DNA from: Armatimonadota bacterium
Lineage (GTDB): Bacteria; Armatimonadota; UBA5829
Assembly: GCA_023474015.1 (NCBI GenBank)
Contig: JAMCYN010000092.1
Location: forward strand, 62,001-126,000
Length of the DNA stretch: 64,000 bases
Direction of reading: 5' to 3'
Under the pieces are notes generated by a model that saw only the letters and a list, made by a program, of their open reading frames with translations, was not told the origin of the DNA and searched no databases. Positions within the stretch are counted from its first letter, which is position 1; the number at the start of each line of letters is the position of its first letter. The position numbers were made by a program, and so were the translations under genes. This document shows positions 36,984-47,463 of this stretch, piece by piece.

Positions 36984-38048
36984 CTAACTCACCGTCTGCT
37001 GTTTGAAGTACTTCCTCTGGAAGAACAGGGAAACATTCACCAGACTGATAAGCACCGGAACCTCGACCAGCGGTCCGATGACCGCCGCGAACGCCTGGCC
37101 GGAGTTGATTCCGAACACCGCTACGGCCACGGCGATGGCTAATTCGAAGTTGTTGCTTGCCGCAGTGAACGAGAGCGTTGCCGTCTTGGAGTAGTCCGCG
37201 CCGATCTTCTTGCCCATGTAGAAGCTCACCAGGAACATCACGACGAAGTAGATAAGGAGCGGAATAGCGATTCTGACCACATCCAGCGGCAGCCGCACGA
37301 TGTATTCGCCCTTGAGAGAGAACATCACAATGATGGTAAAGAGCAGCGCGATCAGCGTGATGGGGCTGATTCTCGGAATAAAACGTCTTTCATACCACTT
37401 GCGCCCCTTGGTCTTCAGCCCAACGATCCTGCTCAGGATGCCTGCGATGAACGGGATGCCGAGATAGATGAACACGCTCTTGGCTATCTCACCGATGGTC
37501 ACATGCACCGCACTGCCCTTCAGCCCGAAGAGCGGCGGCAGGACCGTGATGAAGACGTAGGCATAGACCGAGAAGAAGAGCACCTGGAAGATAGAGTTGA
37601 ACGCCACCAGACCTGCCGCATACTCTGTATCACCCCTGGCAAGCTCGTTCCATACGATCACCATCGCGATGCACCGCGCGAGACCGATCATTATAAGGCC
37701 AACCATAAACTCGGGATATCCGCGCAGAAATGTTATCGCCAAGAAGAACATCAGGATCGGCCCGATGATCCAGTTCTGCACCAGCGACAGGACCAGTATC
37801 TTATAGTTGCGGAAGACCTCCCCCAGTTCCTCATACTTTACCTTTGCAAGCGGCGGGTACATCATAAGGATGAGCCCTATCGCTATCGGAATGTTGGTTG
37901 TGCCGACGGCAAAACGGTTCCAGAAACCGGCAGTGCCGGGCACGAGGTAACCTGCTCCCACACCGATGGCCATCGCCAGGAATATCCATAAAGTCAGGTA
38001 ACTGTCCAGGAACGACAACCGTCTTGTGATCGTTTGACTGCTTTCCAA
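36984..38048 (-). CDS. acr3: ACR3-type arsenite efflux permease
   Basis: The TTG at 38048 has AGGAGG six bases upstream and gives 354 residues; an earlier start would overlap the upstream gene. Ten membrane segments of the ACR3/BASS fold, with the family signatures [19 protein letters not shown] (the cysteine in membrane segment 4 used for transport) and [20 protein letters not shown] (conserved Glu). It exports As(III) from the cell. Last full gene of the ars operon, with arsC and the MtrA-like gene upstream. Confidence 0.95.
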
Positions 38049-38085
38049 ATGGCTCCTCCTTGTTGTCCTCTGAGCATCCGTGTGG

Positions 38086-38823
38086 CTACTGACCTTCTTC
38101 CAGTCGCTTCGCTTCCATCTTGGCCTTGATTTCAGCCATGAGATTCTGCAGGCGGTCCGCCGCGGCCTGCTCGTCCGCGTTGCGAGGCGCATACCAGGGT
38201 TGACGCACCCTCCACGTTATGGATGTGCATATCGGCTCGCAAGGCAGCGCGCCGGGGTCAAAGAGGGTGTAGTCGCCGAACGGGGTTGGCTGCTCCTGAT
38301 AGCACGACCATATTGCGTCGCGCACCTGCCTGTGATCGCCTTCGTCTATGAGGTCGATTATCTTCACCTGTTGGCGAAAGCGCTCGACGGCCTCGCGCGG
38401 GATGTTATAGAGATACGGCGTTGGAGACTCCGAGCCGATGATCCGAGAGCCGTCGTCGGTGCCGTTGAGGCTCAGTGCCTTTAGGCTATGGCCGACCAAA
38501 TGGCCGGGGGATTCCGGGCCGCACACCACAAGGTATCGGATGTTGGGATTGGCGACGATGTTGCAGATCATCTTCTCGGTGCCGATGTTTTCGGTCTGCA
38601 GCGTTCCCGACAGAGCCGCGCCCGTCTCAACGCCCAGTCTCACCAGGTCTTCGATTTCCTTTGGAATCTCGTCCTCGCGCCATTTGAGTATCACACACAC
38701 GGCTACGGGGGACATATCATTGCCCCGCAAATATCGTCCCTCTTCCGGTGGGTAGCCGGTCGAAGGCTGTATCTTATGGCCCGGATTCGGCGTCCATTCC
38801 CCGAAATCGCCCCCGCTATTCAC
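38086..38823 (-). CDS. MtrA-like corrinoid protein in an ars operon
   Basis: A 245-residue soluble protein. [60 protein letters not shown] and [16 protein letters not shown] match subunit A of tetrahydromethanopterin S-methyltransferase (MtrA), the cobalamin-carrying subunit in methanogens. The candidate axial histidine is H108 in [10 protein letters not shown]. The C-terminal membrane anchor of methanogen MtrA is absent; instead the tail is charged and helical. Start GTG 38823 (GGAGG nine bases upstream) overlaps the arsC stop by 8 bases, so it is coupled to arsC. A corrinoid methyl-transfer or regulatory role in arsenic handling is inference. Confidence 0.85.
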
Positions 38824-39238
38824 GGCTAAGCTCCTCCACGAGATTTTCGACCCGCCGCCTGATCTGATCGCGTATCTCGCGGACCTTCTCTATTGGCTCT
38901 CCCTTGGGGTCTTCGAGGCCCCAGTCCTCGGATTCAACGAACACGGCAGGGCAGACGGCCCCGCCGTGCTTGATGTCATCGAGGTTCACGCCGCAGCCCA
39001 TAGTGATCACCTTGTCTGCACTCTCGACCATCTCCGACGTCATTACCTTGGGGTAGTGGCGGCTCATGTCGTAGCCGATCTCTTCCATCGCCTCAACAGC
39101 TTGCGGATTAAGCCCTGCGCCCGGCTGGGTCCCCGCCGACTCCGCGAGAATCCTACCCTCGCCGAGCCTCTTTGCGAACGCCTCGGCCATCTGGCTGCGA
39201 CCGCTATTGTGGATACAAACAAATATGACTTTCTTCAA
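38816..39238 (-). CDS. arsC: Arsenate reductase (low-molecular-weight phosphatase fold)
   Basis: The TTG at 39238 behind GAGGAG gives 140 residues. The P-loop CIHNSGRS (C-x5-R-S) starts the protein, and later cysteines near residues 80-95 (VITMGCGVNLDD, GGAVCPAVF) are placed for the thioredoxin-linked relay, with acidic DWGLEDPKGEP. It reduces As(V) to As(III), which ACR3 exports. Coupled to the MtrA-like gene by overlap. Confidence 0.93.
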   Translation of the reverse strand: MKKVIFVCIHNSGRSQMAEAFAKRLGEGRILAESAGTQPGAGLNPQAVEAMEEIGYDMSRHYPKVMTSEMVESADKVITMGCGVNLDDIKHGGAVCPAVFVESEDWGLEDPKGEPIEKVREIRDQIRRRVENLVEELSRE

Positions 39239-39429
39239 GATACTTCTCCTCTGCTTACTATTTCGTTGTTGGTTGTGCGGCACTACTTGCAGCAAGCCGC
39301 GAATTGAGCAGTCCGGCTTGTTTCAGCTTCCAATGTGAAGTTGCGCTTGTTGGCCTGTTGGCGCAATAACCAAGTAGCCGGACAAAAAGAGAAGCTCTCT
39401 CAAGCTCATCACTTACACATACACATAGC

Positions 39430-39741
39430 TTATCCGACGAGTTCCATCTTCTCCTTGGCGTTAGACTTCATCACCGCCTCAACGCAGCCAAAGAAGCTAA
39501 CTATGCATGGAACCCGGAGACTGTAGAACACCTGCTGTCCTACCTTGCGGTCGTCGACTATTCCGGCCTCTTTCATAAGCGCCAGGTGCTTCGAGACGGT
39601 GGACATATCGGAGCCCACCAGTTCCCGAAGCTCACAGACGCACTTTTCGCCATCTACCAGCGCATCCACCATCATAAGCCGGCTGGGATGCGCCAGAGCC
39701 TTTATGATCTTTGCTCTCTCTTCGTACGCTCGCCTGTTCAT
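39430..39741 (-). CDS. arsR: ArsR-family arsenic-responsive repressor
   Basis: The start at ATG 39741 gives 103 residues. The winged helix includes ALAHPSRLMMVDAL and MSTVSKHLALMKEAGIV. The metalloid site is EKCVCELRE (C34, C36), like the ELCVCDL motif of classical ArsR, with further cysteines near the C-terminus (VPCIVSFFGC). It should repress the operon from the dyad upstream and be released by As(III) or Sb(III). The 190 bases to arsC contain no gene I can support. Confidence 0.94.
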   Translation of the reverse strand: MNRRAYEERAKIIKALAHPSRLMMVDALVDGEKCVCELRELVGSDMSTVSKHLALMKEAGIVDDRKVGQQVFYSLRVPCIVSFFGCVEAVMKSNAKEKMELVG

Positions 39742-39761
39742 GTCTGGTTGTTCCCTCTTAC

Positions 39762-39777
39762 TTGGTATTATAACCAA
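39762..39777. promoter_or_regulatory. ArsR operator dyad
   Basis: TTGGTATTATAACCAA is a near-perfect 16-base palindrome overlapping the -10 element of the arsR promoter. Its position fits direct repression. Confidence 0.7.
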
Positions 39778-39795
39778 ATAATACCGACAGGTCAA
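39767..39795 (-). promoter_or_regulatory. Sigma-70 promoter of the ars operon
   Basis: On the minus strand, TTGACC (39795-39790) and a perfect TATAAT (39772-39767) are separated by 17 bases, and the operator lies over the -10. Confidence 0.75.
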
Positions 39796-40171: not shown

Positions 40172-40915
40172 TCATAATCGTCCCATCGCCAGTAGAATTC
40201 CGTGTATGATACTCCACGGGTGCGGGGGGTCGCCCGGAATGAACGAACATACAGGTAATATGCTTGACGCCCCGTTTGCTTCTGCATAACCACCACTGTG
40301 TAAGCCTCCGCTGATGGCGCTAGTGCCCACCGCGATGACGATGCGAGGTTCAGCCATTGCCTCATAGCACCGGCGCAACGGTTCCTGCATTGCTCGACCT
40401 ACGGGGCCGGTAACGAGTAGAGCGTCGGCAAAGCGAGGCGACGCAACGAAATGAACTCCAAAACGAGCGATATCGAATATCGCATTTGTGCTGGCAATCA
40501 CTTCCAGATCGCTCGCATTGTCGCCCGTGGAGACTTCACGAATATGCATAGATCGCCGGAATGGCAGTTTATTTGGCATTGATGTGGGGGCAAGCTCGGG
40601 GCGGTTGGTTAGGACAAGTTCTTCTCGCGTGCTGACTGCTGTTTTCGTCGAACGGTCTGCTATGATGGTTCCCGATGCGCATACTCCAAGACAGGCATCA
40701 CAGCTAATGCATCGTCCACGATCGAGAGTGACTGCCTCACCAGACACGCTTATGGCCTTGGTAGGGCAGACTTTGGCACAACGCCCGCAATCAGCGCCTA
40801 AACACGGAGATACCGTTACCGTCGGCAGCCCGTTAGCATCATCGGATAACATTGGGAACAACTCTCGTTGGGTGATTATTCCCGTTTTCAATATTGTGAA
40901 GAATGGATTCCCCAT
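40172..40915 (-). CDS. Ehr/Hyf-like complex: small (NuoB/HycG-type) subunit fused to a ferredoxin domain
   Basis: A 247-residue fusion. Residues 30-85 hold two 4Fe-4S motifs (C38, C43, C46, C50 and C69, C72, C75, C79), as in HyfH/NuoI. Residues 118-247 are a NuoB/HycG-like domain (RRSMHIREV... VTGPVGRAM... IPGDPPHPWSIIHGIL). All four ligands of the proximal N2-type cluster are replaced: D132 and S135 stand where C-x2-C is expected, S199 in VGTSA where VGTCA is usual, and D229 in PGDPP where PGCPP is usual. The complex therefore lacks this cluster. Last gene of a six-gene operon. Confidence 0.85.
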   Translation of the reverse strand: MGNPFFTILKTGIITQRELFPMLSDDANGLPTVTVSPCLGADCGRCAKVCPTKAISVSGEAVTLDRGRCISCDACLGVCASGTIIADRSTKTAVSTREELVLTNRPELAPTSMPNKLPFRRSMHIREVSTGDNASDLEVIASTNAIFDIARFGVHFVASPRFADALLVTGPVGRAMQEPLRRCYEAMAEPRIVIAVGTSAISGGLHSGGYAEANGASSILPVCSFIPGDPPHPWSIIHGILLAMGRL

Positions 40916-40927
40916 TAGCTCACTTTC

Positions 40928-42436
40928 TTAGAGGTCATTTCCGCTGTAAGACAGATTAAAGCTCTTGTTGCAAAGTGGGAAGTCGGTGACCAGGTTCCCG
41001 CGAGCAGCTATTGCTAGTCCCGTCCAGTTGTTGAAACTCGGGTCTTTGATGGCATAGCGCGATATCGCCCCCGTGGTGTCCGTGGTTATCCAGTGAATGA
41101 GTTCACCTCGCCAGGCTTCCACTATTCCAATGCCAAAATCGTCCGGTGATAGAGCCTTGTCTTGGCAATTAAAATAGATAGGACCAGCCGGAAGACTTTC
41201 CAACAGTTCGTTTACTATATGAATGCTGGAGCCAATCTCATCCACACGGATCTGCGCGCGCGCCAACACATCGCCTGTATCACGCAAGGCGGGTTTTGGA
41301 GCGTATTTAGGATAGACACCATGCGGATAGAATCTACGTGTATCGTAATCACTCCCGCTTGCGCGTCCAGCAGGCCCAACCAGATTAAAATCCCGAGCCA
41401 ATTCGCGAGTGATGCGGCCAGTGCCATCCATTCGCTCAAGGACTGAAGAATTCTCAAGAACAAGTGGAATCAACTCCCGCAGGCGAGTCTCTATGTCTGA
41501 AAGCTCTTTTTTGATTGATCTTCTTCGGTCATCATCCAAGTCGCGCGCCACTCCGCCGGGCTTGATGTAATAACGTTGTCGCCGACTGCCGGTGAGCATC
41601 TGCGCCAATGTCAGTATCGCCCCGCGCATGGGCGGGAAGAGCGCCGCGCCCGCGCTGTAACCGATGTCACCCGACAACGCTCCTATGTCGCCGATATGAT
41701 TTGCCAGGCGCTCGAACTCCAATGCTATGGTGCGCAATGCGTGCGCTCTGGGCGGCGGATCGATGCTCAAGAGCTGTTCCATTGCGATGGCATGCGCCAG
41801 TGCGTTGCCGATTGCGGTATCCGTGCTGGCGGATTCAGCAAGATAGCAGGCCTGCTGCCAGGGAAGTTCTGTAAGTCTTTTCTCGATTCCGCGATGTTGA
41901 TAGCCAAGGCGAATATCCAGATTGGTTATGATCTCACCGGCGCAACTGAACCGGAAATGCCCAGGCTCGATAATCCCCGCATGTATCGGCCCAACCGGGA
42001 TCTCGTGAATACCTTCGCCTGTTACCTCCAGAAACTGGTAAGGCTCCCGGTGACCACGGCTCATCGGCGAAAGAGGGAAAAGGTCATTTGGCCATGCGCC
42101 ATCGTGAAGTATCAGACTCTTCCAACGCGGGTGATCCAATGCGCGCAGGCCGAAAAGATCCCCCATGGCGCGCTCTGCCCAGTGAGCGGCCGGAACTCCC
42201 AAAGTGACCGAAGGATATTCAGTCTCGCCATCCACAAGCGGCACGGTAATAATCACACCGCCATTCGCATTCGTATCAAGCAACAGAACTTGGATTGCCA
42301 GAGTATTGCCGTCACAGACCCGTGCTGTCAGGTGGCCAAACCGCCTGCCCGGCTGTTGCAGATAGTTACGCACCGTTGCGGCCAGCGCGTTTGGTGTTTC
42401 AGATATCCGCTTGAAGTTTCGATCAATCTGATTCAT
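40928..42436 (-). CDS. Ehr/Hyf-like complex: large (HycE/NuoCD-type) subunit without NiFe ligands
   Basis: The ATG at 42436 gives 502 residues. An N-terminal NuoC-like part (AERAMGDLFGLRALDHPRWK) is fused to a NuoD/HycE-like part (LDIRLGYQHRGIEKRLTELP). In hydrogenases the next segment carries C-G-I-C; here residues 204-207 are STDT. The C-terminal DPCxxC is replaced by DFPLCNKSFNLSYSGNDL with a single cysteine, C489. It cannot bind a NiFe centre in the usual way. This is the hallmark of energy-converting-hydrogenase-related (Ehr) complexes. Overlaps the upstream gene by 4 bases. Confidence 0.88.
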   Translation of the reverse strand: MNQIDRNFKRISETPNALAATVRNYLQQPGRRFGHLTARVCDGNTLAIQVLLLDTNANGGVIITVPLVDGETEYPSVTLGVPAAHWAERAMGDLFGLRALDHPRWKSLILHDGAWPNDLFPLSPMSRGHREPYQFLEVTGEGIHEIPVGPIHAGIIEPGHFRFSCAGEIITNLDIRLGYQHRGIEKRLTELPWQQACYLAESASTDTAIGNALAHAIAMEQLLSIDPPPRAHALRTIALEFERLANHIGDIGALSGDIGYSAGAALFPPMRGAILTLAQMLTGSRRQRYYIKPGGVARDLDDDRRRSIKKELSDIETRLRELIPLVLENSSVLERMDGTGRITRELARDFNLVGPAGRASGSDYDTRRFYPHGVYPKYAPKPALRDTGDVLARAQIRVDEIGSSIHIVNELLESLPAGPIYFNCQDKALSPDDFGIGIVEAWRGELIHWITTDTTGAISRYAIKDPSFNNWTGLAIAARGNLVTDFPLCNKSFNLSYSGNDL

Positions 42437-43881
42437 GGCCGCGCCCCCTGTTGTGCCAGGACAGTTAGCATGCGCATCACCGGTGGGGCTACGGCCACTC
42501 CGGCAACAAGCGACATCACCAATAGCAAAGCAGGCGTCAACGCCCATACCCGCACGGGAGCGGTTCTTGCAGGGCTTTGCTCGTGGCCGAAAACTACACG
42601 CCCCACGTGGGTGGTGACAGCGATGAACGTAATGGTCAGCCCGACTATCACGACGATGGTGGCCGATATTTCACCCGAGGCAAACGTATCCCGAAGCAGG
42701 AGCCATTCACTAATGAATGTGCCGAACGGAGGGCTTCCGGCTATAGCGAAACCGGCCACGATCAACACGATTCCCCATACAGGTGATGCTTTCAGGATCC
42801 CACCTAGTTTGGAAAGCTCCTTAGTGCCGTAGACGTGCAGAATTCCACCAGCCACAAGGAACAGAGCCACTTTCACGATACTATGGTTGAACGCATGCAG
42901 AATAAAAAGCTGCCCCGATCCGATGCCGATGGCGAGCGTCAGCAGCCCGACGTGTTCGACACTGGAATAGGCCAACATGCGCTTCAAGTCATGTTGGCGT
43001 ACCAGCATCAGGCTGGCCGCGATCACAGTGATTGCCCCTGCGGGAACAAGCAGTTGACGCACCAACTCCCCTTGGCCGGCAGCTACTACTACCTGAGTCA
43101 GTCTCCATATCGCAACTAAGGCGCAGTTGAGCAGAGCGCCTGAGAGCATGGCGGATACGGGCGATGGCGACTCGCTGTGAGCATCGGGCAGCCAGTTGTG
43201 AAGCGGAAACATGCCCGCTTTTGTTCCATAACCAAGCAAGCAGAAGATGAACCCAAGGCGCAACAGGCGCGGGTCCATACCTTTCGCGCGGGCCATAAGA
43301 TCACTCAGCATCATGGTCTCGCCGTTTCTAAAGGCATGCTGAGCAGCCAGGATCAAGACTGTGCCGAAGAGCGCAAAAGCTATACCTACACTGCACAGCA
43401 GCAGGTACTTCCACGTGGCCTCCAGGGAGTCGCGACCGTGATGGTAGTTGATAAGCGGCGCGGACATCAGCGTGGTAGCCTCAACCGCAATCCAAAGGTA
43501 GCCGATGTGCTGGGCAAGCGGCACGGCATACATCGCGAGAATGAACATACCCGACAGAGTGTAGAAAAAGCAAAACCGCCGATCAGTAATCTTGTGCCCT
43601 TCCACGCGTTCCGCCGGTAGCAACAGAGCAGCTTGAACCATCGCCGCCGCGGCCACCAATGTAGTGATGATCGTAAACGCGGCTCCCATGCCGTCTATGC
43701 GAAAAGCGCCGCAACTGATGATCCCGCCGGAGAAGACGGGAACGCATACCCAAACCACCACGGGAATCTGAGCCACCATGAGAATCGCCCCGGTCCAGGG
43801 CAGCCGACGCGCCGTGCGCGGAATAAGGCCCAAAAATGCCATCAACATCGGCAGCATTGCTATCATTAGGAATGCGATCAA
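42433..43881 (-). CDS. Ehr/Hyf-like complex: antiporter-like membrane subunit (HyfF/NuoN type)
   Basis: A 482-residue protein with about 14 membrane segments. The Mrp/Nuo proton-translocation signatures include KAGMFPLHNWLPDAHSESPSP and HDLKRMLAYSSVEHVGLLTL, with conserved lysines and a glutamate in the central helices. It probably moves protons or sodium ions in the inner membrane. It overlaps both neighbours by 4 bases, so the operon is translationally coupled. HyfF/HycC-like homologues occur in hydrogenase-4, Ehr and complex I; the neighbours identify this one as Ehr/Hyf-like. Confidence 0.92.
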   Translation of the reverse strand: MIAFLMIAMLPMLMAFLGLIPRTARRLPWTGAILMVAQIPVVVWVCVPVFSGGIISCGAFRIDGMGAAFTIITTLVAAAAMVQAALLLPAERVEGHKITDRRFCFFYTLSGMFILAMYAVPLAQHIGYLWIAVEATTLMSAPLINYHHGRDSLEATWKYLLLCSVGIAFALFGTVLILAAQHAFRNGETMMLSDLMARAKGMDPRLLRLGFIFCLLGYGTKAGMFPLHNWLPDAHSESPSPVSAMLSGALLNCALVAIWRLTQVVVAAGQGELVRQLLVPAGAITVIAASLMLVRQHDLKRMLAYSSVEHVGLLTLAIGIGSGQLFILHAFNHSIVKVALFLVAGGILHVYGTKELSKLGGILKASPVWGIVLIVAGFAIAGSPPFGTFISEWLLLRDTFASGEISATIVVIVGLTITFIAVTTHVGRVVFGHEQSPARTAPVRVWALTPALLLVMSLVAGVAVAPPVMRMLTVLAQQGARP

Positions 43882-44522
43882 TGCCGTAACCTCCGCATAT
43901 CAGTGACATCAATATGCTCGAAACTGCGATTGATGCGGAATATGAAAACCCCGGCTATCAGCACCCCAATGAGCACCTCGAAGACGACTCCCATTTCGAC
44001 AAGCATGGGCATGTGGCGTGTCTGCGTGAGAGAGTAGAGAAAAATGCCGTTCTCCATCGTAAGAAAACCAATCACCTGACTAAGAGCCAGGCGACGAGTG
44101 ATCATCAGGAGCATACCAATGAATATGAGCGCCAAAGCCATGCCCGCCGAACCCTGGTTCATCATCGCGGGAACAGCGAAGTCTGGTGCAAGAAAATAGC
44201 CAATAAATAACACGCCGCATCCGATCATCAAGACAAGAGTCGGGCTTATACTCACTCCTTTGTCACGCTCAATAGCCATGCGTTTCGCCGATCTGCCCAG
44301 AAAGACCGGAATGCCTACGGCTTTGATCAGAAACACAACGAGGGCCAAAACAAGCAATTGATTTTGTGCTTCCGCTACGCCCAGCATCACACAAATGCTG
44401 GAAAGCATGGCGGTCTGCAAGACTAAACCCCAAAGTTGAGTCTTCACGCGCGTCACTCCGCACATCCATACTGCCAACACCGCCGCGCATGCAGCAAGAA
44501 GATCGATTTGAGAAAGATTCAT
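43878..44522 (-). CDS. Ehr/Hyf-like complex: HyfE-type membrane subunit
   Basis: A 214-residue protein with about seven membrane segments. It resembles HyfE, a fusion-like relative of NuoK/MrpC: QLLVLALVVFLIKAVGIPVF and the later VIGFLTMENGIFLYSLTQTR, where E in TMENG corresponds to the conserved NuoK glutamate. It lies between the HyfF-like and HyfC-like genes in the same order as in hyf operons. Inner-membrane component of ion translocation. Confidence 0.88.
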   Translation of the reverse strand: MNLSQIDLLAACAAVLAVWMCGVTRVKTQLWGLVLQTAMLSSICVMLGVAEAQNQLLVLALVVFLIKAVGIPVFLGRSAKRMAIERDKGVSISPTLVLMIGCGVLFIGYFLAPDFAVPAMMNQGSAGMALALIFIGMLLMITRRLALSQVIGFLTMENGIFLYSLTQTRHMPMLVEMGVVFEVLIGVLIAGVFIFRINRSFEHIDVTDMRRLRH

Positions 44523-44544: not shown

Positions 44545-45468
44545 TCACGCCTGCGCCGCCGCCACTAACGCCGCCAGTAAGCTCATTACCGCCGCAAATG
44601 CCAGGAAGTTCGGTACGCTCCGCCACTTCAGCTTCACCAATACGGCTTCAGCAATCGCGACCGCTACGCCCAATGCCGTTACGCCGACGAGGCTTATTGG
44701 GTACCGGACCAGCATCGGTAAAGCCTGGTAGGAAGGCCAAGCATGTAGCAGCGTCTGTGTTGCCAGTCCCAGGAATATGCAGGTGCGCAGCGCCGCCGCA
44801 TATTCAATGATCGCAAGGCTTCGTCCGCTATATTCAAGAATCATGGCTTCATGCACCATGGTCAGTTCCAAGTGAGTGGTAGGATCATCAACCGGCATCC
44901 GTGAGAGTTCCGCCAACGCCGCTAACACCAATGCCGCGCCCACCAAAACGGCTATAAACGGACTCGTATGCGCGGAGTAGATTGTCAGCAGATTGGTGCT
45001 TCTCGCCCCCAAAGACAGTGCTCCGATTCCAATAACGAGCGTAGGCTCAACCAGCATCGAGATTGTGGCCTCTCGACTGGCTCCCAACCCACCGAACGCG
45101 GATCCTGTATCTATCGCGGCCAACATGGTGAGGAACTTGCCGAGGGCAAGAAGATAGAGCACCAGGAGGAAATTGGTCGCCGGGGCCCAGTCCAGCGGCA
45201 GGAGCGAACTGGTCCACGGAACCAATACCGCCGCGATGACCGCAACCGCCAGTCCGACTCGCGGCGTCCAAACAAAGACCCAACTCGCGGTCTTGCTGAT
45301 AGTCTCCGCTTTGCGAAGCAGCTTCGCCAGATCATAGAACGGCTGCAATATCGGCGCGCCTACACGGTTCTGCATCAACGCCTTTACCTTACGGATGATC
45401 CCCACCAACAGCAAGGGGAAAATGAGGATGTTTACTAGCTGAATTGCTGTCAAGAGCAGTATTTTCAT
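44545..45468 (-). CDS. Ehr/Hyf-like complex: HyfC/NuoH-type membrane subunit
   Basis: The ATG at 45468 gives 307 residues with eight membrane segments. It is a complex I subunit 1 homologue: MQNRVGAPILQPFYDLAKLL is the cytoplasmic loop that contacts the quinone or cluster module, and MPVDDPTTHLELTMVHEAMI carries the acidic residues of the ion path. It connects the soluble and membrane arms. Start overlaps the upstream gene by 4 bases. Confidence 0.92.
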   Translation of the reverse strand: MKILLLTAIQLVNILIFPLLLVGIIRKVKALMQNRVGAPILQPFYDLAKLLRKAETISKTASWVFVWTPRVGLAVAVIAAVLVPWTSSLLPLDWAPATNFLLVLYLLALGKFLTMLAAIDTGSAFGGLGASREATISMLVEPTLVIGIGALSLGARSTNLLTIYSAHTSPFIAVLVGAALVLAALAELSRMPVDDPTTHLELTMVHEAMILEYSGRSLAIIEYAAALRTCIFLGLATQTLLHAWPSYQALPMLVRYPISLVGVTALGVAVAIAEAVLVKLKWRSVPNFLAFAAVMSLLAALVAAAQA

Positions 45469-47453
45469 CGCCCAACTCCCACCCACAGCAGCAATCCCAA
45501 CACCACCGCCATGTAGACGAGATACTGATGAATGCTGCCTGCCTGCAAACGCATGAGAAAGACGCCTGCCATTCGTTGAATACTCTTGAGCAACGGCGAG
45601 TACACTCTCGTCTCTAGATGCGCTTCGTGCATCGTCTCGACCGCGACAGTCTCCGGGAAATGACGCCGGTTCCGCCCCTTGATAGTGACCTCCACCGCAT
45701 AGCTGTAGATTGCGCCGAACAAACGCGAAATCGGCTGTGCGAAACTAGCGGCCGTATACTGAGTCCGTGGCCCCAGATCGCCGAAGCCGCATTCCCAGGT
45801 TATGAAGCGCCGGGTGGGATGCGAACGGGACAACTCATGCATCCACATCGCCAACACTCCGACAGTGCCGACCATAAGCAGGGCAAGGAGAGCAATCGGT
45901 ATGGTCCAGATGCCGTGAAGTAACGAGGGACTACCCGTCTGAACAGCTATGGCTCCGAGAGGATAAAGGACTAACGGAGCAGCGATCCCAAGTCCAACGC
46001 ATAACAATGCTAACATCACCTGAGCGGCAACCATTCCCTTGCTCGCCTCATGCGCATGTTCTGCCTCCTGGCTTCGTGGGTTGCCTAAAAACACCACGCC
46101 GACTGCCTTGACAAAGCAGGCGATTGCCAATGCGCCGATCAGCGCCAGCCACCCCATCAGCACCAATGCGCCCAGGCGCAATCCTACACTCTGAGCATTT
46201 AGCGCAAGGCCGAAGAACCCCTGGTATAACAACCATTCGCTTGCGAATCCATTCAAGGGAGGCAGCGCGCAGATAGCGGCGCTTCCAACCACAAATGCTC
46301 CGGCAGTCCAGGGCATTCGATGGATCAATCCTCCGAGCCTTTCGACATCATGCAGATGAGTGCGAGCATCTACCGCGCCCGCCCCAAGGAACAGCAGACT
46401 CTTGAAGACGGCATGGTTGAGCGTGTGAAATAGCGCCGCAGCTAGTCCCAGTTGCGTCAGCATTGCAACACCGTAGGACTTGCCCAAAAGCGACACTCCA
46501 AGCCCCATCATGATAATGCCTATGTTCTCCACGCTGTGGTAAGCCAACAGGCGCTTGAGGTCGTGCTGCAGCAAAGCAAAAATTACGCCCCAAAACGCCG
46601 ATATCGCGCCGAGAATCAATATGATCGGCCCGAGAGCTGGCACGGCGAAATGATCACCCAAAACAAACAGCCGCGCCATAGCGTAGATGGCCGTCTTTAT
46701 CATCACGCCGCTCATTATAGCCGACACGGGAGCTGGAGCGGCGGGGTGCGCTATAGGCAGCCATAGATGGAACGGCCAGGCCCCGGCTTTTGTCGCCAAA
46801 CCAATGAAGATCAATAACGCGGGACCTAATGCCACAGCTCCGGAGAGCGCCCATTCAGAGAAGACCCAACTGCCGGTTAGTTGGTGCGCCCAGATGAAAC
46901 CGGCCATTAGGAATGCTGTACCAGTCCGGGTGGCGCCCAGGTAGATAAATGCCGAACGCCTGATATCGCGCTGCTCATGATCGGCGACAACAAGGACGAA
47001 TGAGGAAAGTGCCATAACTTCCCACGCAACCAGAAACACGATTGCGTTTGCAGCCAACACAACCCCGACCATACAGACCATAAGCAGAGCAAAAGCTGCC
47101 CATACAAAACCAAGAGACACGCGGTGGCGCAGATGATGCAAATAGCCTGGAGAAAATAAAGCCACGGGTATTCCCACGACACCTATGATGGCAAGAAACC
47201 AGCGGCTCAGGGGGTCCACCACGAAGCTGAAGCCAGCATCGCCGAGAAACCACGGGGATATAAAGGTCAGTGTGCAGTTCCTTTCGACCAAGGCGGCAAG
47301 TAAGATGAAAGCACAGCCGATAATCGTGGGAACAGAGAAAATCAGCCCGGAATGTTTTCGCTTGAGCAAGCCTGCTGCAGCAACGGCCAGCCACACAAGA
47401 ACAGCGGCCCCGCACAACATGCCGGAGCCGCCAATGAGTTCGGAAACAGACAT
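45465..47453 (-). CDS. Ehr/Hyf-like complex: HyfB/NuoL-type antiporter subunit
   Basis: The ATG at 47453 gives 662 residues; a GTG three codons earlier is possible. About 16 membrane segments with the Nuo/Mrp core KAGAWPFHLWLPIAHPAAPAP and HDLKRLLAYHSVENIGIIMM. The C-terminal extension (about 530-640) has a conserved cytoplasmic segment (RRFITWECGFGDLGPRTQYT) seen in HyfB/HycC. First gene of the operon; the following five genes are all on the same strand with overlaps or short gaps. Confidence 0.92.
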   Translation of the reverse strand: MSVSELIGGSGMLCGAAVLVWLAVAAAGLLKRKHSGLIFSVPTIIGCAFILLAALVERNCTLTFISPWFLGDAGFSFVVDPLSRWFLAIIGVVGIPVALFSPGYLHHLRHRVSLGFVWAAFALLMVCMVGVVLAANAIVFLVAWEVMALSSFVLVVADHEQRDIRRSAFIYLGATRTGTAFLMAGFIWAHQLTGSWVFSEWALSGAVALGPALLIFIGLATKAGAWPFHLWLPIAHPAAPAPVSAIMSGVMIKTAIYAMARLFVLGDHFAVPALGPIILILGAISAFWGVIFALLQHDLKRLLAYHSVENIGIIMMGLGVSLLGKSYGVAMLTQLGLAAALFHTLNHAVFKSLLFLGAGAVDARTHLHDVERLGGLIHRMPWTAGAFVVGSAAICALPPLNGFASEWLLYQGFFGLALNAQSVGLRLGALVLMGWLALIGALAIACFVKAVGVVFLGNPRSQEAEHAHEASKGMVAAQVMLALLCVGLGIAAPLVLYPLGAIAVQTGSPSLLHGIWTIPIALLALLMVGTVGVLAMWMHELSRSHPTRRFITWECGFGDLGPRTQYTAASFAQPISRLFGAIYSYAVEVTIKGRNRRHFPETVAVETMHEAHLETRVYSPLLKSIQRMAGVFLMRLQAGSIHQYLVYMAVVLGLLLWVGVGR

Positions 47454-47463
47454 ATCTAACACC

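Follow-up and report, generated by a model that had tools for sequence, protein, structure and literature searches.

Ehr complexes, known from Geobacter, comammox Nitrospira and Melainabacteria, are built from a group 4 hydrogenase-like set of subunits in which the NiFe ligands are missing, and in the available portions of the reports concerned no settled role is given for them and no loss of the N2 (proximal) cluster is described (PMC6349859, PMC10284858, PMC7894505). Likewise, no description of N2 loss in Ehr complexes, or of a carbonic anhydrase (CA) neighbourhood, was found among the titles and abstract openings listed from the open literature. The locus described here shares with the Ehr complexes the subunit set and the missing NiFe ligands, but differs from them in having lost the N2 ligands and in carrying a ferredoxin domain fused to the small subunit. 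Among solved structures, the top matches of both soluble subunits are to the formate hydrogenlyase and hydrogenase 4 of E. coli (HycG, HycE, HyfB-F), with which a HyfB/C/E/F-like membrane set is also shared; unlike these enzymes, which have a separate HycF/HyfH, the complex has a fused ferredoxin domain and neither NiFe nor proximal-cluster ligands, and in contrast to formate hydrogenlyase no formate dehydrogenase occurs among the recurrent neighbours of the family (those in at least four loci). With complex I (NuoB/NuoD) it has in common the fold, the HRGxE motif and the antiporter-like subunits, but not the N2 ligands, and its operon lacks the NADH-oxidising subunits. Antiporter-like subunits are also found in DAB/MpsAB and NDH-1MS, CO2 uptake systems made from NuoL-like or complex I-like parts, where, according to the available portions of two reports, they serve inorganic-carbon chemistry without redox (DAB) or with it (NDH-1MS) (PMC13144422, PMC6981117). 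However, Pfam detects neither DabA (PF10070), with its Cys2His zinc site, nor CupA among the six proteins studied here, and the link of our family to carbon comes from the gene neighbourhood of relatives alone.

The window (the whole stretch of 64,000 nucleotides that was analysed) holds a tightly packed operon of six genes on the minus strand, reading from 47462 to 40172: a HyfB-like antiporter subunit (45465..47462), a HyfC/NuoH-like subunit (44545..45486), a HyfE-like membrane subunit (43878..44522), a HyfF-like antiporter subunit with a Proton_antipo_M domain (42433..43881), a NuoC+NuoD/HycE-like large subunit (40928..42547) and, as the last gene, the small subunit (40172..40915). Judging by the nearest relatives that carry a name, the host is probably a member of the Armatimonadota. 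The first-pass annotation had seen in these genes an Ehr/Hyf-like complex without NiFe ligands, and both claims are borne out: the Pfam and NCBIfam assignments of the six subunits and the order of the operon give a group 4 hydrogenase-like composition, and the HycE alignment puts S241, T244, S533 and G536 where a group 4 [NiFe] hydrogenase has its four NiFe cysteines, the absence of which is typical of Ehr. The predicted fold of the large subunit is still HycE-like (TM 0.84). Its listed reading frame overlaps the HyfF gene by 115 bases, and residues 1-40 of this long form have a pLDDT below 50 in the AlphaFold model; the real start is probably M38 (42436), which leaves a 4-base overlap with the hyfF stop. 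All six genes are present in 32 of the 34 loci L119-L152, with HyfB clipped by contig ends in three. At L137 (G356) the small subunit is N2-less and the other five genes were not found within 16.5 kb, and at L128 (G461) only the two soluble subunits are present, membrane subunits not being found nearby. A second NuoH-type gene occurs in 14/14 Armatimonadota/UBP13 hosts, and the Ehr complex is therefore not the cell's sole complex I-like machine; among the Bacteroidales hosts, three of eight have a single NuoH-type match, the Ehr one. Directly downstream of the window operon, on the minus strand at 36984-39795, lies an arsenic-type cluster with an ArsR regulator, a low-molecular-weight phosphatase/ArsC-like protein and an SBF-family (ACR3-like) transporter; between them is a match to MtrA, subunit A of the tetrahydromethanopterin S-methyltransferase (E=8.4e-43), an unusual neighbour for the arsenic genes of a bacterium.

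The small subunit, 247 aa long from an ATG start, joins a 2[4Fe-4S] ferredoxin domain, at the N terminus, to a NuoB/HycG-like domain. Pfam finds ferredoxin models in the stretch 32-90 and, over 136-241, Oxidored_q6 (NuoB; E=1.8e-18), and the C-terminal half aligns to HycG (7z0s_G), MbhJ and NuoB in a phmmer search against PDB chains. As the first-pass annotation had it, the eight ferredoxin cysteines of the two clusters are intact (C38, C43, C46, C50, C69, C72, C75 and C79; 40679..40804, minus strand), while other residues stand in place of the N2 cysteines: the phmmer alignment sets D132, S135, S199 and D229 opposite the four cluster cysteines of HycG. The codons of these residues, all on the minus strand, lie at 40520..40522 for the first ligand position (Cys in N2-bearing relatives), 40511..40513 for the second, 40319..40321 for the third (the Cys of a G-x-C-A motif) and 40229..40231 for the fourth (PGCPP). 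The subunit has neither the proximal [4Fe-4S] ligands of group 4 [NiFe] hydrogenases nor the N2 ligands of NuoB in complex I. In the AlphaFold model (pLDDT 87.5, pTM 0.86) the chain retains a NuoB-like fold and superposes on HycG at an rmsd of 1.1-1.2 Å over 131 columns. Beyond the ferredoxin motifs the chain contains only C183 and C223, of which the former sits in a predicted helix distant from the ligand motifs and the latter is Cys in just 8 of the best 120 of 5394 homologues, so that no alternative cysteines are left to fill the N2 site; other cysteines in the cluster positions, which would have undone the earlier observation, were looked for and discarded as candidates. C183 itself (codon 40367-40369, minus strand) is Cys in 120/120 of both homologue sets used here (best 120 of 5394 and best 120 of 7995), whereas N2-bearing relatives have Cys, Thr or Ala at its position, and the N2-less L068, L070 and L094 have Thr.

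Conservation in the window's clade was assessed on the best 120 of 5394 homologues (62-100% identity, P0001 being the window itself). Among these 120, the eight ferredoxin cysteines are invariant (120/120), and so are the residues around the ligand positions, namely G131, D136, E138, G197, A200, G203, P227, G228 and P231. The ligand positions themselves belong to the NuoB-domain columns of higher variability (ranks 90-119 of 135), with Asp in 82, Cys in 21 and Ser in 17 at position 132; Ser in 59, Thr in 34, Cys in 14, Ala in 11 and other residues in two at 135; Ser in 86, Asp in 19, Cys in seven, Gly in five and other residues in three at 199; and Asp in 101, Ser in 11, Glu in six, Ala in one and Cys in one at 229. 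No N2 cysteine remains in 88 of these sequences, one in 22, two in nine and three in one, and none of the 120 keeps all four. The nearest homologues read D-C-S-D (P0002-P0005, 85-86% identity) or D-S-S-D (P0006 and P0007, 84% and 83%). Since none of the best 120 homologues, these included, has the full set of four N2 cysteines and the ferredoxin cysteines are kept in 120/120, a local sequencing error, for which relatives with all four cysteines would have spoken, is excluded.

A different picture emerges outside this clade. Scanning of genome contigs gave 50 loci, with a fused small subunit in L001-L026. The Melainabacteria-type relatives (L005-L025 minus L007; 46-59% identity, all 19 genomes within the class of G009) have cysteines at all four positions (CCCC) in 19/20 cases, L010 being CCDC, and the same holds for 48 of 49 distinct Melainabacteria-type operons. 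The loss of N2 seen in the Armatimonadota/UBP13 clade is therefore clade-specific and not Ehr-wide, and the earlier notion of a systematic loss of the proximal cluster stands for that clade but not for Ehr complexes generally. Fused small subunits were found in 12/291 genomes in the phylum to which L002 belongs (Armatimonadetes; E < 1e-90), 2/3 in that of L001 (UBP13) and 12/98 in that of L024 (E<=1e-45), as well as in 55/247 from the L026 order (E<=1e-45, where two of the 57 matches are without the ferredoxin part) and 75/194 from the L012 class (E<=1e-55, a sample overlapping that from the L024 phylum); the loci taken from this last class exclude G739, a partial gene at a contig end, and most lower-scoring genomes. 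Of 66 fused rows, 32 are CCCC at the N2 site, three have three cysteines and 31 at most two. Intermediate states such as CTCC (L064, L065, P0089), CTCS, CTSS and CTDS suggest a stepwise loss in the Armatimonadota line, as far as can be read from sequences. In other genomes of the Armatimonadetes phylum, unfused NuoB-like proteins are CCCC in 17/17 usable rows (of 18, L071-L088; the L075 row is a ferredoxin-like ORF and was left out). The ligands of ferredoxin cluster II (C50/C69/C72/C75), which we take to be N6b, adjacent to N2, by complex I numbering, are complete in 66/66 fused rows and in 33/33 rows of a later locus set. Mirror cases also occur (L024, L158, L163, L112 and L114-L118), with N2 intact, cluster I ligands lost or partly lost, and cluster II complete.

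A second loss is evident in a Bacteroidales-type clade. Of L026 and L090-L107, 17 read DCDN at the four positions and one DGDN, and L092 is CCCC. Among the best 120 of 7995 homologues of L026 (scored within the 8000 candidates sharing the most words), position 132 is Asp in 120/120, the N2 site is intact in 0/120 with never more than one of its cysteines per sequence, cluster II is complete in 119/120 (the remaining row is gapped), and none of the 12 commonest patterns of cluster I has more than one Cys. Both the large-subunit and the small-subunit tree show two big clades on long supported branches with N2-bearing members in each, and the starred branches force at least three changes of state on the small-subunit tree and at least four on the large-subunit tree; L027 (an unfused, tandem-cysteine NuoB) and the unfused L071-L088 were left out. 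A single N2 loss common to both clades was rejected by an AU test on the large-subunit tree with all N2-less rows forced into one clade (p=0.000125), a value to be read with caution given that the trees are quick ones and the tested group was chosen after the small-subunit tree had been seen. By these sequences, N2 is lost at least twice: in the Armatimonadota/UBP13 clade and in the Bacteroidales-type clade, there together with ferredoxin cluster I. On the large-subunit tree the N2-bearing L128 and L131 (Bacteroidales-order, CCCC) nest inside the N2-less clade, a position that may reflect repeated loss within that clade, gene transfer or wrong placement.

The residues that replace the cysteines are often acidic. 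Exactly two Asp/Glu are present among the four positions in 98 of the best 120 of 5394 window homologues, as opposed to a mean of 68 after shuffling of columns, with 0/5000 shuffles reaching 98; kinship is ignored in these figures, which are not probabilities. The 21 rows with fewer than two acids are those still with Cys at 132, and one row has three. Among the best 120 of 7995 L026 homologues, exactly two acids are found in 117 and three in the other three, a two-acid count that every shuffle reaches, so that the control is uninformative for this set. The acidic pair differs, being 132+229 in the window, 199+229 in STDD and 132+199 in DCDN. D132 is present in 31/31 N2-less rows of the 66 fused ones, 25 of which have two acids; the other six, deep-branching Armatimonadota without Cys132 (L063 DSSH, L066 DAAG, L067 DTAS and L068-L070 DTQN), have one acid only and weaken the idea of charge replacement. 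The arginine of the HRGxE motif (R219) is kept in 58/58 large subunits, N2-less rows among them; the available portion of one report places this residue close to N2 in complex I and describes a mutant complex I without functional N2 which assembles and does not reduce quinone (PMC8042128). Since such a mutant cannot reduce quinone, passage of electrons to the large-subunit cavity is unlikely in the window complex, and by this analogy quinone reduction through N2 would not be expected of it.

Sequence conservation argues that the complex is not decaying, as the operon, the charged residues of the membrane arm and the arginine facing N2 are all kept. The membrane residues hardly vary, whether the rows are Armatimonadota, Melainabacteria-type or Bacteroidales (at least 75% per group, mostly 100%): E148, K225, H232, K303, H350 and K354 in HyfB; E134, K221, H333, K337 and E392 in HyfF, where K300 reaches 75% in Armatimonadota; E147, E193, D201, E207 and E213 in HyfC; and K67 and E157 in HyfE. 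The Lys, Glu and His residues of the antiporter-like subunits are thus retained in the manner of Mrp-type antiporters. In the large subunit D243, N527 and K528 are found in 58/58 rows, C202 in 57/58 and C526 in 55/58, HycE and MbhL having other residues at the two cysteine positions in the alignments; position 242, which we take to be the equivalent of the quinone-ligand Tyr of complex I, is S/G/T. C526 is replaced by Ile (CTCC-type rows) or Asn in L121, L122 and L143, and C202 is missing in L145. Over the six genes dN/dS is 0.03-0.17 for one N2-less pair (L001/L003), others tried being too diverged. In the nine loci L119-L127 the alignments of the six genes to relatives span 74-100% of the query and are free of stops, the exceptions being the small subunits of L126 and L127, whose alignments contain one stop and whose frames (those of L069 and L070) are open over 256 and 260 aa.

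The gene neighbourhood offers a hint at function in one clade. In Melainabacteria-type loci, SulP anion transporter or beta-carbonic-anhydrase-like genes adjoin the operon in several orientations: 34/49 operons have one of them within 5 kb (14 SulP, 20 CA-like, none both), against an expected adjacency of 1.6% per operon (from 50 Pro_CA and 80 SulP matches in 19 host genomes, related operons not being independent), and among operons fetched after the profiles were built the count is 19/29. L165-L168, which are copies of L016, L021, L013 and L022, were left out of these counts. The SulP matches are strong in Pfam, and one type of carbonic anhydrase (L009, L019) scores above the cut-off; the second type matches weakly (E 0.006-0.007; none for L016), with C-x-E-x-R and H-x-x-C motifs recognised by eye, and without the nine of the 20 CA-like cases that depend on it the count becomes 25/49. 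The N2-bearing Melainabacteria-type complexes probably have a job connected with inorganic carbon (CO2/bicarbonate) or with pH homeostasis. Such neighbours were found at 0/15 Armatimonadota/UBP13 loci (window included), 0/17 Bacteroidales-order loci and 0/9 other loci, flanks being cut by contig ends in six of these (L004, L007, L128, L130, L145 and L149), and it is therefore in the Melainabacteria-type clade alone that the carbon link is seen. Nor is it family-wide, since the loci without CA or SulP genes include 11 N2-bearing ones (L128, L131 and L144-L152), L147-L152 sharing the class of the 49 operons. The window complex may share this job, an extrapolation that is the weakest part of our explanation. 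No dehydrogenase or maturation gene family was found to recur in at least four of the clustered loci. A partnership of formate dehydrogenase (FDH) with Ehr, put forward for Margulisbacteria and Saganbacteria and also considered for Melainabacteria in the available portion of one report (PMC6349859), was rejected as a candidate here, no formate dehydrogenase being present among the families examined at that threshold. Directly downstream of the N2-bearing L131 there are NuoEF-like and NuoG/HoxU-like genes and a second NuoB-family (small-hydrogenase-like) gene, a module that is possibly a redox partner. An ArsR-type regulator adjoins 22/49 Melainabacteria-type operons and 8/15 Armatimonadota loci (upstream in L120-L127). 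The ArsR of the window, 341 bp downstream of the operon, scores more weakly (5e-19 vs 1e-37 to 1e-53 for those of L120-L127) and sits in the arsenic-type cluster, and was not counted as a regulator of the operon.

We suggest, at a probability of a little under one half (roughly 0.46), that the window encodes an Ehr-type ion translocator whose redox exit is closed, with carboxylates in the place of N2. The six-subunit complex, a member of the complex I/group 4 hydrogenase superfamily, would no longer receive electrons at its large-subunit site; the N2 cluster would be absent from the protein, and polar side chains, as a rule including two acids, would occupy its space and probably hold, fully or in part, the negative charge once supplied by the cluster beside the invariant HRGxE arginine. 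Such a complex would still be assembled and under selection, with an intact proton- or cation-translocating membrane arm, and would most likely exchange protons, or sodium for protons, driven by or coupled to ion gradients and not to redox at the NuoD site, while the remaining ferredoxin clusters may be structural or may sense redox state and gate the complex. The membrane arm, the family motifs of the large subunit, cluster II and almost always the operon are common to complexes with and without N2, so that the function outlives the loss of both NiFe and N2 and is unlikely to be the delivery of electrons to the large subunit. What speaks against this reading, besides the six one-acid rows, the possible redox partner beside L131 and the lack of CA-like or SulP neighbours outside the Melainabacteria-type clade, is that both ferredoxin clusters are kept in 120/120 of the window clade (best 120 of 5394), more than a purely non-redox role needs. 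The same conservation speaks for the main rival, a different electron exit, in which the ferredoxin domain would swap electrons with a soluble ferredoxin or another partner and redox there would drive the pump conformationally; the retention of cluster II (66/66 and 33/33 fused rows, 119/120 of the Bacteroidales-set rows from the best 120 of 7995) and the NuoEF/HoxU-like genes beside L131 point the same way. Yet no partner oxidoreductase recurs in at least four clustered loci, and cluster I, presumably the entry cluster N6a by complex I geometry, is lost in the Bacteroidales-type clade, L024 and L158 while the rest of the complex is conserved, and we regard this exit as a serious but distinctly less probable account. 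The first-pass annotation had posed the choice between a complex without redox at this site and one with another exit; the evidence favours the former as the more probable of the two.

The N2 pocket might instead still hold a cofactor, either a mononuclear metal ion or an Fe-S cluster with Asp/Ser ligands, given that the replacements are mostly acids and hydroxyl or amide residues capable of binding metal, that they recur in two clades and that D132 is found in every one of the 31 N2-less fused rows. The shifting acidic pair is unlike a fixed coordination shell, however, the remaining positions hold a wide range of residues (S, T, C, A, G, M, V, I, Q, N), and we know of no precedent for an all-oxygen 4Fe-4S site, all of which makes a cofactor unlikely. 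Slightly more doubtful again is a large subunit serving as the catalytic centre of a gradient-driven system for CO2 hydration or bicarbonate, with a role like that of DAB or NDH-1MS, for which no redox centre would be needed. This would fit the retention of C202 and C526, a candidate zinc site, and of D243 and N527-K528 in the former NiFe/quinone subunit, the two cysteines setting it apart from HycE and MbhL, as well as the CA-like/SulP neighbours of the 34 Melainabacteria-type operons and the combination in DAB2 of a Cys2His zinc site with a NuoL-like subunit, given in the available portion of one report (PMC13144422); but the cysteines are not universal (C526 is missing from three loci and C202 from one), the neighbours may already provide carbonic anhydrase, and the N2-less loci lack them. 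Decay of a complex that has become dispensable in the lineage, under relaxed selection, would account for the variability of the ligand columns, but is very improbable in view of the invariant flanking residues, the low dN/dS of the one pair, the near-complete six-gene alignments of L119-L127 and the recurrence of like replacements in a distant clade. A bolder form of the preferred reading combines several of these elements into a machine of the complex I superfamily that dropped N2 at least twice, replaced its charge with mimicking carboxylates and handles CO2/bicarbonate purely by ion gradients, possibly with a new C202/C526 metal site at the place of NiFe; as a whole we consider it improbable.

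How quinone or metal-site chemistry near N2 drives proton pumping at a distance is a central open question of complex I, and complexes which keep the apparatus for coupling and pumping, lack both NiFe and N2 and carry acids at the N2 position are natural tests of whether the charge of N2, as opposed to electron transfer, sets the state of the pump. If the gradient-run carbon reading is true, the family would represent a third way, besides DAB and NDH-1MS, of building an inorganic-carbon machine from the parts of complex I. Inorganic carbon or pH is also a concrete candidate function for the Ehr complexes.
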